A DNA stretch of 11,456 nucleotides. Origin: Isotricha intestinalis. Its lineage: Eukaryota > Ciliophora > Litostomatea > Vestibuliferida > Isotrichidae. A model generated the notes under the pieces. The model was not told the origin of the DNA and made no database searches. It saw only the letters and a list, made by a program, of their open reading frames with translations. The stretch lies in assembly GCA_023807065.1 (NCBI GenBank), contig JAJJLU010004582.1, positions 1-11,456 of the forward strand, read 5' to 3'. This document shows, in pieces, positions 4,679-10,679 of this stretch (positions are counted from its first letter, which is position 1; the number at the start of each line of letters is the position of its first letter). A program made the translations under genes and the position numbers.

Positions 4679-5101
4679 ATGGGATGTTCATCATCAAGAG
4701 AAAAAATAGAATCCAGAATGCTGATATTAAAATTAAAGAGAATAGAGATAAAACAAGAAAGAGAAGAAAGAATAAAAGCATTAGAAAAATTAACAGGCAA
4801 AGAAATTAAAAGAAAATCAGTTCCAGATTATATTGAAAAAATAAAAGATGGGAATGACGACATGGACAGTGAAAAAAATTCTGATAGTAATACAATTGTA
4901 AATCAAAATGAAAATATCATTTTGAATAAAAATAGACAATTTAATTTTGATGAGGATAATTTCAACGAAAGTGAAAGTGATAATTATGAAAATAACAAGA
5001 AATCCTTTAATGAAAGTGAAAGTGATTCTAATTATGAAAATGAAGAAAGTTTAGGTGGTGAAAAAAAAGAAATTGAAAATATATCTTCTGAAAATATCTA
5101 A
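4679..5101 (+). CDS. Small acidic protein with N-terminal MGC dual-acylation motif
   Basis: The family is not recognised by name, but the layout is clear. The 140-residue chain begins MGCSSS: Gly2 with Ser at position 6 fits N-myristoylation and Cys3 fits palmitoylation, so the protein is probably anchored to the plasma, alveolar or ciliary membrane. Residues 7-57 form a basic, charged amphipathic helix. From about 58 onward the chain is acidic and Ser/Asn-rich. It contains two imperfect copies of a FNESESD-(S)-NYEN unit (95-108 and 110-124), full of S-x-x-E/D casein-kinase-2-like sites. The start is fixed by the acylation motif. The gene lies between a 1.2-kb spacer and CFAP298, on the same strand as CFAP298. 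A 14-bp stem-loop follows the stop by a few bases. Small acylated proteins of this kind are common in ciliates and often adapt signalling or calcium-binding proteins to membranes, but the specific role is unknown. Confidence 0.82.
   Translation: MGCSSSREKIESRMLILKLKRIEIKQEREERIKALEKLTGKEIKRKSVPDYIEKIKDGNDDMDSEKNSDSNTIVNQNENIILNKNRQFNFDEDNFNESESDNYENNKKSFNESESDSNYENEESLGGEKKEIENISSENI
4961..5050 (+). repeat. Coding tandem repeat (two units of about 15 codons)
   Basis: The two FNESESD-NYEN units of the acylated protein are also similar at the DNA level (GAAAGTGAAAGTGAT is shared exactly). This suggests a recent internal duplication, with a few silent and replacement changes since. Confidence 0.6.
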
Positions 5102-5481: not shown

Positions 5482-6372
5482 ATGGTACTCCTCCATTTTA
5501 AAATAGCAGAAAAAAACCAATTTATATACTCAGTACCAGCTACAACACCAATAACAGATATAATAAAGGGAGCAGTAGAAATAAACAATCTTCGTTGTAA
5601 AATAGATACATTATGCATGGTAACAGAAGAGTTAATAAAGCATGGTCCATTAAAGCCAGAAGAATATCGTGGATTAAAAGAGACAGAAAATTTAGATGAA
5701 AATATAGAGCCACAATATCGAGCAAAAAAAACTCCATTTCCTGAAAAAGTAGGAACAAAATATAATGAAGATAAAACAAATCAAAGAACAGGATGGATAT
5801 TAGAAGATGATATAAATAAGAAAATAATGGAAGCTGTAAAAGAAGCAAAGGAATATTTAGACCCAAAAAGAGCTGAAAGTAGGAAAATAACAACTTCAGA
5901 TGAATTAAATAAATTAATTCAATTAATGTATGGTGGAGTTATGATTGGATATCCTGCTTATCATGGTTTAGGTGAATGGGAACCTTGTAGAGTAATATTT
6001 GAAGATAAAAGTGATATTTTAAAAAAAGATGAACCTAATCAAGATTATTTTCAATTTGATACTACTTGTTTATGGTATGCTGGAAAAGAATTAGAAAGAG
6101 GAAAATTATTAAGTGATTATATTGGGAAAAATGAAAAAACTAAAGTAGTTGTTAAATTCACTAAAAAAGGATCTGGAGCTCCAGTTAGGGAACCACTTAT
6201 TGATAAGGAAACTCATTCTAAAATGTTACAATATTATTATAAGAAACAAGAAGAAGAAAAAAAATTACAGAATGAAAATGAAGATAGTTATTTAGATTCA
6301 CAATGGGCTGATCCCAAACAAATGGAAAAACAATTGTATATGAATGGGGATATTAAATGGAAATATCATTAA
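5482..6372 (+). CDS. CFAP298: Cilia- and flagella-associated protein 298 (C21orf59/Kurly homologue)
   Basis: This is a full-length homologue (296 residues; the vertebrate protein is about 290). CFAP298 is needed for assembly and transport of axonemal dynein arms and for cilium motility and polarity, and human mutations cause primary ciliary dyskinesia. Family hallmarks are visible along the chain. The start is MVLLH. An N-terminal ubiquitin-like region covers about 1-55. A helical segment at about 108-131 follows. GGVMIGYP lies at 151-158, then LWYAGKEL at 197-204. The most conserved block is LSDYIGKNEKTK (210-221) followed by GAPVREP at 232-238. An acidic/basic helix leads to YLDSQWADP (270-278), and the end is DIKW-x-x-x. 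Start and stop both match the family ends, so no intron or truncation is present, and TAA is a true stop. A 161-bp U-rich gap separates it from the convergent gene at 6534-8453. Confidence 0.97.
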   Translation: MVLLHFKIAEKNQFIYSVPATTPITDIIKGAVEINNLRCKIDTLCMVTEELIKHGPLKPEEYRGLKETENLDENIEPQYRAKKTPFPEKVGTKYNEDKTNQRTGWILEDDINKKIMEAVKEAKEYLDPKRAESRKITTSDELNKLIQLMYGGVMIGYPAYHGLGEWEPCRVIFEDKSDILKKDEPNQDYFQFDTTCLWYAGKELERGKLLSDYIGKNEKTKVVVKFTKKGSGAPVREPLIDKETHSKMLQYYYKKQEEEKKLQNENEDSYLDSQWADPKQMEKQLYMNGDIKWKYH

Positions 6373-6533: not shown

Positions 6534-8453
6534 TTATTCTTCATCATATCTTCTAAGTTGCATTTTCTTTCTTTTATTCTTTTCAATATCTTCTAAAAAT
6601 TTACTATGATCACTAAGAATACAATATTGGCATTTTCTTTCAGGACTTTTTCCACTATGTTTATGAACATGTTTATTTTGTTCTTGATTATCCATTTGAC
6701 TTAAAGCAAGACAATTTTTAGTAGGTAATTTTTTATTTGTAGGAGAAATTTTAAGAATAATTTTTTCTTTTGCTTCTTCATTTTTTTCAATTTGTTTTTT
6801 AAGAATTTCTTCATTTTTATTAACATTAAAATTTTTTTTTTGTTTTTGAACTCCCATTCCAGCTCTATAATAAGGATCATAATTAACATAACCTTTATTA
6901 GTAATAAATCCTTTTTTTAATAATTCACTTTGAATATATTTACTTCCAAAGAAACCATGAAGATTATAATCAAATAAAGGAACATAATATTTCATTTTTG
7001 ATTTTTCAGCGTTTAAACAATCTAAAACAAATTTATTTTCCAAATCATTTAATTCAAATTTTTTAATATAATCATCTAATTCTTTTTTATCTAATCTAAC
7101 AATATAATATTTAGAATTTAAAGTAATAGGATAACCATTTACATTTAATTCAAGTACTCTTTTTAATAATTCACATCCACTCATATAACTAGGATATAAA
7201 TCTTTAATTCCTTTTTCTTTATTATTATTTGAGCAAAATCTTCCTAATAAACCACCATAAAAAATACTTTTATAAAAATCTCTATTATTAGGGTCTCTTA
7301 ATGTATTTTTATATTCTCCTATTTTATCTACATTTTGAGGAGTAATTTTTGGATAAGGTTTAATATCATAAATCATTTTTAATGCTTTACCATCATTTGG
7401 AACTTCTATTATTGATATTTTACTAAAATTTTCATCTAAAAAAAATCCCACTTTTGAACATGTTATACTTAATGCTCCTCTACATGCTATTGATTGAATA
7501 TAATAATCTTCTATATCTTCTTTTTTTATTTCTTCATCTTTTTTTTGCTTTGTTTGATATTTATTTGAATGTTGATTATAATTTTTAACTGCATCATTTA
7601 TATCTGAGATTGTTGTATCTGTTAATAAATATATTCTGTTTAAAATCGACATTTCTTCTGATGAAAAATATTGAGTTGTATCTGAAAAATTTATTATTAT
7701 ATTTGCATTATATGATGATTTTAATTTATTAATAAAATCAATAAAATCATCTAATTGTTCAATTTCTATTATATCATGAATAAAACTTATAAAATAATTA
7801 TATTGTTTACTTCTTAAAAATATTTTATCAAATATAGATTTTTGTTCTTCTTCTTCTTCTTTATTTTGATTATTTTTATTATAATTATTAGGATTTTGTA
7901 ATTTTTTTCCAGAATTACTTGTTTTTTGAGCTTTTGATTCTTTTTCTAAATAATGTTCTCCTGAATCTGTTCCAGTTCCAATTTTAATTGAATTATTTTC
8001 TCCATATGATTTATTTATTATTGTTAATGTTATTGGATTATGTTTTCCTTCAAATAAAGGCCTTTTTTTAACATTAAAATTATATCTTTTATTTACTTTA
8101 TTAAATAATTCTTCAAATTCTTTTTCTTCTAATGTAAAAATTGGAGTTTCATATGCAATATATTCTATGTTTAATTTATTATTATCATTTAAACTTCTAT
8201 TCATAAATAATAATGTATTTATTTCTTGATTTTGTGTATTTATTTCTATTTGATTCAATAAATTTGGATTTTTTATTAAAAAAGAATAATCCTGAAGTTG
8301 ACTTAAATTTCCTATATTTTCAATTTCTAGAAGTATTAATTCTTCATTTGTTAATTCAATTTTATATTCTATATCATAATGACCCATTCCTAAAATTGTA
8401 ATATCTGCTTCATTTGAGGTTTTCTTTGTTTGCTTTTTTTTGTTGTTTTTCAT
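6534..8453 (-). CDS. Large conserved-looking protein of unknown function (639 aa)
   Basis: I do not recognise this protein. It has no signal peptide or membrane span. After a Lys-rich start, residues 17-165 alternate beta-like and helical stretches. Residues 166-206 are low-complexity with Asn and a run of Glu. Residues 216-290 look like an alpha/beta fold (hydrophobic strands near 219-227, 251-256 and 274-279, the last two followed by Asp/Thr). After a charged linker (300-315), the most protein-like part runs from 318 to 534, with GFFLDENF near 336, FYGGLLGRF at 398-406, LYPSYMSG at 419-426 and NYDPYYRAGMG at 524-534. Lys/Glu-rich helix follows to about 570. The C-terminus carries H595, H597, H599, C608, C611 and H616, which could bind zinc. 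It is convergent with CFAP298. A cytosolic or ciliary role is possible but rests only on that neighbour. Confidence 0.8.
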   Translation of the reverse strand: MKNNKKKQTKKTSNEADITILGMGHYDIEYKIELTNEELILLEIENIGNLSQLQDYSFLIKNPNLLNQIEINTQNQEINTLLFMNRSLNDNNKLNIEYIAYETPIFTLEEKEFEELFNKVNKRYNFNVKKRPLFEGKHNPITLTIINKSYGENNSIKIGTGTDSGEHYLEKESKAQKTSNSGKKLQNPNNYNKNNQNKEEEEEQKSIFDKIFLRSKQYNYFISFIHDIIEIEQLDDFIDFINKLKSSYNANIIINFSDTTQYFSSEEMSILNRIYLLTDTTISDINDAVKNYNQHSNKYQTKQKKDEEIKKEDIEDYYIQSIACRGALSITCSKVGFFLDENFSKISIIEVPNDGKALKMIYDIKPYPKITPQNVDKIGEYKNTLRDPNNRDFYKSIFYGGLLGRFCSNNNKEKGIKDLYPSYMSGCELLKRVLELNVNGYPITLNSKYYIVRLDKKELDDYIKKFELNDLENKFVLDCLNAEKSKMKYYVPLFDYNLHGFFGSKYIQSELLKKGFITNKGYVNYDPYYRAGMGVQKQKKNFNVNKNEEILKKQIEKNEEAKEKIILKISPTNKKLPTKNCLALSQMDNQEQNKHVHKHSGKSPERKCQYCILSDHSKFLEDIEKNKRKKMQLRRYDEE

Positions 8454-9663: not shown

Positions 9664-10062
9664 TTATTCTAAATTATTATAATAAGATTTTCTCCCACCA
9701 ATTCCTGCTTTACAATAAGCAACTGCCCATTCACCTGCTTTAGCAATAATTCTTTTTTGTTCATTTGATGATAAAAATCCTCCTTTACATGTAGCAGAAT
9801 GTTTTTTAGTTTTATGCCAATACATTGAAATAACATAACCACCTTGAATATTGGATATGAAACGAGCTTTCCCATTTTCAAGAGTAGTATCTCTAAAATT
9901 ACCTTGAACTACTTCATAACTTAATTTTTCTCCTAATTTTTCCTTTAGATAACTAAGTGCTGCTGTTCCTGCCTCTTTTAATATAAATCCTCCTACTGCA
10001 GCTAATGATATAGAACATAATGATAAGGTTATTAATAATGATATAATTATTATCTTTTTCAT
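9664..10062 (-). CDS. Secreted lactococcin 972-like bacteriocin-domain protein, copy 2 (132 aa)
   Basis: This is a predicted secreted antibacterial-type protein. I start it at the ATG at 10062-10060. A signal peptide follows at once (residues 1-19: Lys-Lys, an Ile/Leu-rich core, then SLCSIS), and this ATG sits after an A-run exactly as in the neighbouring copy. An in-frame ATG 54 bp upstream (10116) would add a polar stretch before the signal and is less likely. Residues 20-47 form a Gly/Ala-rich amphipathic or hydrophobic helix (LAAVGGFILK at the start). The lactococcin 972-like domain covers about 62-132: ENGKA, then YWHKTKKHSATC (81-92), AGEWAVAYC (109-117), and an SYYNN end. It is about 64% identical to the upstream copy over about 111 residues by hand alignment. 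Cys92 and Cys117 are shared and could form a disulphide. The family call rests on motifs, not on a database search. Confidence 0.78.
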   Translation of the reverse strand: MKKIIIISLLITLSLCSISLAAVGGFILKEAGTAALSYLKEKLGEKLSYEVVQGNFRDTTLENGKARFISNIQGGYVISMYWHKTKKHSATCKGGFLSSNEQKRIIAKAGEWAVAYCKAGIGGRKSYYNNLE

Positions 10063-10217
10063 TTTTTTTTTATTATTTATATTATTGATATTTATATATT
10101 TGCTTTTTTTATACAATTAAATAATACATTTAATCAAAGATATTTTCAATGATATATGCTAATGAAGTTTATTAAAATTATAAAAACAAATTTGATTTTT
10201 GAATAAAAAAATAAATT
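10063..10217 (-). promoter_or_regulatory. Spacer/promoter between the tandem bacteriocin-like genes
   Basis: The 155 bp between the stop of the upstream copy and the ATG of the downstream copy are A/T-rich. They end, reading on the minus strand, in an A-run directly before the start codon, as before the other copy. Each copy could have its own promoter, as is usual for nuclear genes. Confidence 0.35.
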
Positions 10218-10679
10218 TTATTCTAAATTATTATAAAAAGTTTTTCTCCCACTTACTCCAGCTTTACAATAAGCAACAGCATATTCTCCTGCATTGGCAA
10301 TAACTCTTTTTTGTCCACCACCCAATAATCCTCCAACACAAGTAGCAGAATGTTTTTTAGTTTTATGCCAATAAAGAGAAAAAACATATCCATCTTTAAT
10401 ATTTGAAACCCAATGAGCTCTTCCATTTTCAAGAAAAGAATCTCTCATATAACCTTGAGTTACTCTATAATGAATTTTATCAAATATTTTTTCACAAATT
10501 AATCCTATAGCATAACTTGCTGCAGCTTTAAGTATAAATCCTCCAACTACTGCTAAGGTAACTGATTGAAGATTTACTTCATCTTTATTGATTTTATATT
10601 TTAACTTTTCATCGAATTCTCTTACTTCTTCACATAATGTTAAAGAGATTAAAAAAATTACCACAATTAATTTTTTCAT
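10218..10679 (-). CDS. Secreted lactococcin 972-like bacteriocin-domain protein, copy 1 (153 aa)
   Basis: This is a predicted secreted antibacterial-type protein. Residues 1-16 are a classic signal peptide (MKK, then a hydrophobic core ending TLC). Residues 17-39 are a charged propeptide-like stretch missing from the other copy. Residues 40-65 are a Gly/Ala-rich hydrophobic helix (LAVVGGFILK and onward). The C-terminal domain spans about 84-153: GRAHW (86-90), YWHKTKKHSATC (103-114), AGEYAVAYC (130-138), TFYNN near the end. In bacterial lactococcin 972 proteins the same Y-x-H, K-x-H-S-A-T, A-G-x-x-A-x-A and aromatic-Y ends occur in this order. Those peptides bind the cell-wall precursor lipid II and block septum formation. 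Target and activity here are inferred. The conserved Cys114/Cys138 pair is not part of the bacterial pattern as I know it. No transporter or immunity gene is nearby. The start ATG at 10679 follows an A-run and directly begins the signal peptide. Confidence 0.8.
   Translation of the reverse strand: MKKLIVVIFLISLTLCEEVREFDEKLKYKINKDEVNLQSVTLAVVGGFILKAAASYAIGLICEKIFDKIHYRVTQGYMRDSFLENGRAHWVSNIKDGYVFSLYWHKTKKHSATCVGGLLGGGQKRVIANAGEYAVAYCKAGVSGRKTFYNNLE

Follow-up and report, generated by a model that had tools for sequence, protein, structure and literature searches.

Two tandem lactococcin 972-type genes with a conserved cysteine pair in a ciliate macronuclear genome

Laterally acquired lactococcin 972 genes were reported in 2025 from three Trichomonas species, and five other metamonads were reported to have homologues, namely T. 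foetus, H. meleagridis, H. inflata, M. exilis, and S. strix (PMC12612818). According to the portions of that paper available to us, lipid II is the target of lactococcin 972, one metamonad gene was upregulated with E. coli, and most E. coli expressing recombinant metamonad domains grew defectively, with little soluble protein recovered. GH25 and NlpC/P60 are named there beside AMP-Lcn972 in the Trichomonas toolkit. The terms "ciliate", "cysteine", "disulfide", and "disulphide" are absent from its main text as far as this was accessible, and a literature search, judged by titles, found no published lactococcin 972 case in ciliates. Here we describe two adjacent genes (gene 1 and gene 2) with a C-terminal lactococcin 972 domain on contig JAJJLU010004582.1 (assembly GCA_023807065.1; contig C2018), which was analyzed over its whole length of 11,456 bases (the window). 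An earlier note on the window had taken a eukaryotic use of this fold to be new. Since the metamonad genes have been published, such use by eukaryotes is already known, and what is new, as far as our searches go, is limited to the ciliate branch and a cysteine pair in the domain. The reading that we favor, with moderate confidence, is that the two genes encode ciliate lactococcin 972-family proteins, likely derived from an ancient bacterial transfer and predicted to be lipid II-binding wall inhibitors that are secreted or act in food vacuoles.

Metamonad AMP-Lcn972 is described as a laterally acquired C-terminal domain on a small eukaryotic protein, and the ciliate proteins are alike in this layout. 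Each Trichomonas species has two paralogues, as does the ciliate, some of them with signal peptides, and both Trichomonas and ciliate genomes encode NlpC/P60 and GH25 proteins (PMC12612818, in the accessible part). The metamonad hosts belong to another eukaryotic supergroup than the ciliates, and the two systems are likened here by published description, not by sequence.

Gene 1 (positions 9664..10062, minus strand) is intact and encodes a precursor of 132 amino acids, starting with the ATG at 10062 (the open reading frame is listed from an upstream TTG) and ending in TAA. Gene 2 (10218..10679, minus strand) is an intact open reading frame with an ATG start and a TAA stop, encoding a precursor of 153 amino acids. 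The genes lie in tandem near the contig end on the same strand, 155 bases apart, and showed 62% identity over 131 aligned codons, with a ratio of non-synonymous to synonymous substitution (dN/dS) of about 0.55 (NG86, 0.289/0.526). Both proteins have a hydrophobic start after MKK that, by visual inspection and hydropathy, looks like a signal peptide; in each, the most hydrophobic 19-residue stretch of the N-terminal region is residues 4–22, with a Kyte-Doolittle mean of 2.54 in gene 1 and 1.73 in gene 2. In gene 1 this is followed by a helix-like segment and the C-terminal domain (residues 72–128 by Pfam), and in gene 2 by a charged linker (about residues 17–40), a hydrophobic helix segment (about 41–76, low confidence), and the domain (95–149). 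The last 70 residues of gene 1 (9667..9876, minus strand) hold the domain with two family cysteines and an H..H motif; those of gene 2 (10221..10430, minus strand) hold it with cysteines 114 and 138 and histidines 105 and 110.

The Pfam profile PF09683 (Lactococcin_972) matched both proteins above its curated cut-off of 22 bits (gene 1, residues 72–128, 34.5 bits, E 3e-8; gene 2, residues 95–149, 30.4 bits, E 6e-7), as the earlier note had anticipated from motifs alone. The complete assembly (57.3 Mb, 2153 contigs), searched in all six frames, contained only these two places, with 35.4 and 32 bits (genome-wide E 8.8e-7 for gene 1), and none of 14 control genomes contained a PF09683 match. The alignment covers profile positions 11 or 12 to 62 of 62 and so leaves the family's first strand unmatched. 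An AlphaFold2 model of gene 2 showed a helix (residues 42–76) and seven strands between residues 78 and 152. The solved structures nearest to this model, 2lgn and 9hkj, both belong to the lactococcin 972 family, and the modeled domain has the beta-sandwich fold of 2lgn. By Pfam profile and by the fold of the gene 2 model, the domain in both genes is a lactococcin 972 domain.

The first of these structures is lactococcin 972 of L. lactis (PDB 2lgn; plasmid pBL1), to which the gene 2 model was matched with a Foldseek probability of 1.00 and a root-mean-square deviation (rmsd) of 2.1. The histidines, the HSAT core, and aromatic residues near the end are common to this bacteriocin and the ciliate proteins. 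Unlike these, lactococcin 972 contains no cysteine, and its 91-amino acid precursor is without the helix segment. The highest VIA Z (10.2; 77 residues aligned, rmsd 3.1) was obtained with Formosin D (PDB 9hkj), another bacteriocin of the family, which shares 22% identity with the gene 2 protein.

A search with gene 2 found 11 relatives and a profile search 41 (P0001–P0041), the record sources being mainly "ena" and in some cases "lgn", with "jgi" and "ncbi" given in addition for one. Among them are a copy 99% identical to gene 2 (P0001) and a copy 95% identical to gene 1 (P0020), the latter on contigs of up to 12.5 kb; 36 of the 37 members of alignment A2 matched PF09683. Four more relatives (P0045–P0048) were found by a search with P0041; they are 105–107 amino acids long and contain neither the cysteine pair nor, by eye, a hydrophobic start. 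For further comparison, the two window proteins and P0001–P0040 minus P0039 were taken as ciliate-like rows, a class grouped by resemblance and not by named hosts. Histidines 105 and 110 were conserved throughout (41/41 ciliate-like, 5/5 cysteine-poor, and 19/19 bacterial rows). Cysteine 114 was present in 41/41 ciliate-like, 0/5 cysteine-poor, and 0/19 bacterial rows, and cysteine 138 in 41/41, 0/5, and 1/19, respectively, the single bacterial case being an E. faecium protein. As a pair, the cysteines were found in 39 of the 41 environmental relatives versus none of the 19 sampled bacterial rows. P0039, a 79-amino acid fragment outside the 41-row count, has cysteine 138 without cysteine 114, and in 14 of 42 ciliate-like sequences, partial ones included, no cysteine occurs besides this pair. 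Since the pair is conserved in the ciliate-like rows, a disulfide 114–138 within the domain is likely; such a bond would make the lactococcin 972 fold sturdier outside the cell. P0041 and P0045–P0048, all of 105–107 amino acids and by eye without a hydrophobic start, make up the five cysteine-poor rows. They are placed close to the ciliate-like rows and may come from metamonads or other protists of the gut; their lengths resemble some in Table 1 of PMC12612818.

The E. faecium protein (WP_002305242.1; L067:1336–1710, plasmid 7) was the best plasmid match of the cysteine-poor P0048 (45.7% identity over 66% of the query, E 2e-5); from P0046, enterococcal plasmid genes were reached with a best E of about 5. 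Its second cysteine lies on the first strand and not at 114, and the fold may carry its disulfide elsewhere in this protein. In the second of two trees it occupied a long end branch, with the remaining bacterial rows on one side and the eukaryote-type rows on the other.

With 65 rows and 77–81 columns, the trees are trustworthy in their coarse forks alone, and long branches drew a warning from the program. Of 23 genome loci, 18 entered the comparison and 16 were retained; L035 and L036 (both read in a wrong frame), P0039, and P0044 (the same protein as L056) were left out of both trees, and L060, with a very long branch, only of the second, which included the E. faecium protein. The ciliate-like and cysteine-poor rows split from the 19 Bacillota rows with support 100/100 in the first tree and 99/95 in the second, and the ciliate-like rows formed one group in both (89/98 and 52/85). 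Long inner branches separate the window-type proteins from the sampled bacterial members. PF09683 matched in 3 of 398 Bacillota genomes, the center genome G001 counted. Searches with P0041 gave no plasmid match at E 1 and no phage match, and viral contigs contained no relatives; the Streptococcus protein P0043 gave three weak matches to Staphylococcus phage records (best E 0.1). Two candidates were set aside: the PF09683 match in G100, one of the 3 Bacillota genomes, with an internal stop and overlapping a long unrelated-looking frame, and a Streptomyces plasmid hit (H5) whose frame looks by eye like an integrase.

In two bacterial loci, L034 and L031, the lactococcin 972 gene is followed by a membrane protein or uncharacterized proteins and an ABC ATPase; in L. 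lactis these are a membrane protein and an ABC ATPase. None of these membrane-protein or ABC transporter genes was found among the eight window proteins scanned. Only two further window proteins passed a Pfam cut-off, both eukaryotic: a cyclin (PF08613, 93.9 bits) and CFAP298 (PF11069, 130.2 bits; gene at 5482..6372, plus strand, outside the two-gene system). The G+C content of the window is 18.6%, and at third codon positions it is 9.0% and 8.4% in the bacteriocin-like genes, 12.8% in the CFAP298 gene, and 10.9% in the cyclin gene. Both lactococcin 972-type genes look resident in the genome because their third-position values are near those of these two neighbors. The domain was first known from bacteria, and one might therefore take the genes for recent bacterial sequence, i.e., a fragment from prey or a symbiont. 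Given the eukaryotic neighbors, the missing operon genes, the low third-position G+C, and the lack of a near relative in the contigs and plasmids searched, we regard this as extremely improbable. A bacterial origin followed by adaptation to eukaryotic base composition, as the earlier note had proposed, fits these values; its account of the domain and the ciliate setting has held up, and the newness of eukaryotic use has not.

The repeat CCCCAAT was present at 12 of the 19 contig starts read in the assembly. An 18-base telomere-repeat pattern gave 1150 forward and 1031 reverse (overlapping) matches and none when read backwards; among the matches listed, those on contigs C2–C10 sit at contig ends. 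For the trichostome ciliate Muniziella cunhai, telomeres of (CCCCAAT)n, an AT-rich genome, and use of the standard code have been reported (PMC11316547), and a literature listing ties the motif also to papers on Entodinium caudatum and Balantidium. The stops of the four window genes checked were TAA or TAG. With these telomeres, the Muniziella parallel, and these stops, the assembly is shown to be the macronuclear genome of a ciliate, and this ciliate is probably a gut-dwelling trichostome. Scanning of the window contig itself found no telomere repeat, and its placement in the ciliate genome thus rests on composition and assembly. This, and the fact that the relatives derive from environmental assemblies, would also suit a contig of another gut eukaryote swept into the ciliate assembly. 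We consider such contamination improbable, since both genes share their AT-rich codon use with the two measured neighbors, the cilium gene CFAP298 lies on the same contig, as the earlier note had pointed out, and the stops of the genes checked agree with the standard code of Muniziella (PMC11316547, in the part seen).

In the favored reading of ciliate-resident wall inhibitors, an ancient bacterial gene would have been transferred and adapted to ciliate base composition. Its products, by their predicted signal peptides, would leave the cell or enter food vacuoles; by analogy with the bacterial family, binding to lipid II would there halt wall synthesis in bacteria that are close by or have been ingested. 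Ciliates are not known to make lipid II and would therefore need neither protection from such a product nor the membrane-protein and transporter genes found behind the bacterial gene. Stalling of the wall would, again by analogy, act jointly with GH25 lysozymes and NlpC/P60 peptidoglycan peptidases of the same genome, which has 6 sites with a GH25 match and 11 with an NlpC/P60 match. On one contig (G000:C1175), an NlpC/P60 match (52–273) and a GH25 lysozyme match (11324–11863) lie about 11 kb apart. In the rumen ciliate Entodinium caudatum, lysozyme transcripts are numerous and bacterivory is high, and rumen ciliates feed on bacteria in large numbers and thereby influence the community of the rumen (PMC6925433, in the accessible part). 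The weapon role proposed in the earlier note, secreted or phagosomal, we likewise infer.

Several results weigh against this reading. Both proteins scored below the 32.1-bit cut-off of the stricter NCBIfam profile TIGR01653 (19.5 and 20.4 bits), and the genes are thus not placed in the TIGR01653 lactococcin_972 subfamily; of seven other proteins compared with this profile, the bacterial P0042, P0043, and E. faecium proteins passed and the environmental P0022, P0037, P0041, and P0048 failed. The sequence match to solved lactococcin 972 was not significant from gene 2 (E 0.32) or from the A2 profile (E 0.16), and was reached at E 0.0063 from the relative P0041. The gene 2 model had no Foldseek match at E 0.001, and its mean predicted local distance difference test score was 63.1, with residues 22–76 below 50 and confidence over the domain only. 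Bacillota was the sole bacterial phylum sampled in the trees. No relative of gene 2 was found at E 1 among 72,556 plasmid records, a weak look that missed lactococcin 972 genes present there, nor among 14 pattern matches of two peptide patterns (A1) in GTDB genome contigs, also a weak look, and no bacterial donor turned up. To these are added the missing telomere repeat and the grouping of the ciliate-like rows without named hosts. Finally, residues 44–62 of gene 2 equal its predicted signal peptide in hydrophobicity (Kyte-Doolittle mean 1.83), and a membrane anchor in the gene 2 protein is thus possible; the corresponding stretch of gene 1 is less hydrophobic. The N-terminal helix segment showed modest hydrophobic moments (about 0.1–0.5), and we do not claim it as a membrane-active peptide.

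This hydrophobic segment, enough for a membrane anchor, the added helix and cysteines, the strong divergence and long inner branches relative to sampled bacterial members, and the dN/dS between the paralogues would also agree with a true family domain that was re-purposed in the ciliate, e.g., for binding or recognition of bacterial walls, possibly membrane-anchored and without killing. We find this unlikely, as both histidines are kept in all rows of the three groups and growth was poor in most E. coli that expressed metamonad domains (PMC12612818, in the part available).

More tentatively, and as an idea that we hold to be rather less probable than the favored reading, the genes may represent a weapon family of gut ciliates' own, in which a disulfide-locked domain fused to a hydrophobic helix would enter food vacuoles together with lysozymes, and which ciliates and metamonads inhabiting the same guts may have exchanged. 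If the wall-inhibitor reading is true, a secreted lipid II inhibitor would give ciliates a route of killing beside digestion, and ciliates would be a second eukaryotic supergroup to adopt this bacteriocin fold. Lipid II is a target of antibiotic interest, and the cysteine pair suggests a natural, sturdier binder of it.

Beside the CFAP298 gene, an open reading frame of 639 amino acids (6534–8453, minus strand) showed no Pfam match at E 0.1. Another of 140 amino acids (4679–5101, plus strand), also without a Pfam match, starts with MGCSSS, which we take to resemble a lipid-anchor (myristoylation) start. Elsewhere in the assembly, internal stops were seen in the tubulin-like stretches G000:C1843:11806–12333 and C2063:9460–10068, which are pseudogenes or intron-bearing genes. 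Alpha- and beta-tubulin genes were found head to head, their start codons about 120 bases apart (L008, G000:C1640:1–3507), and the match table showed three such head-to-head pairs, on C1640, C1974, and C1462.
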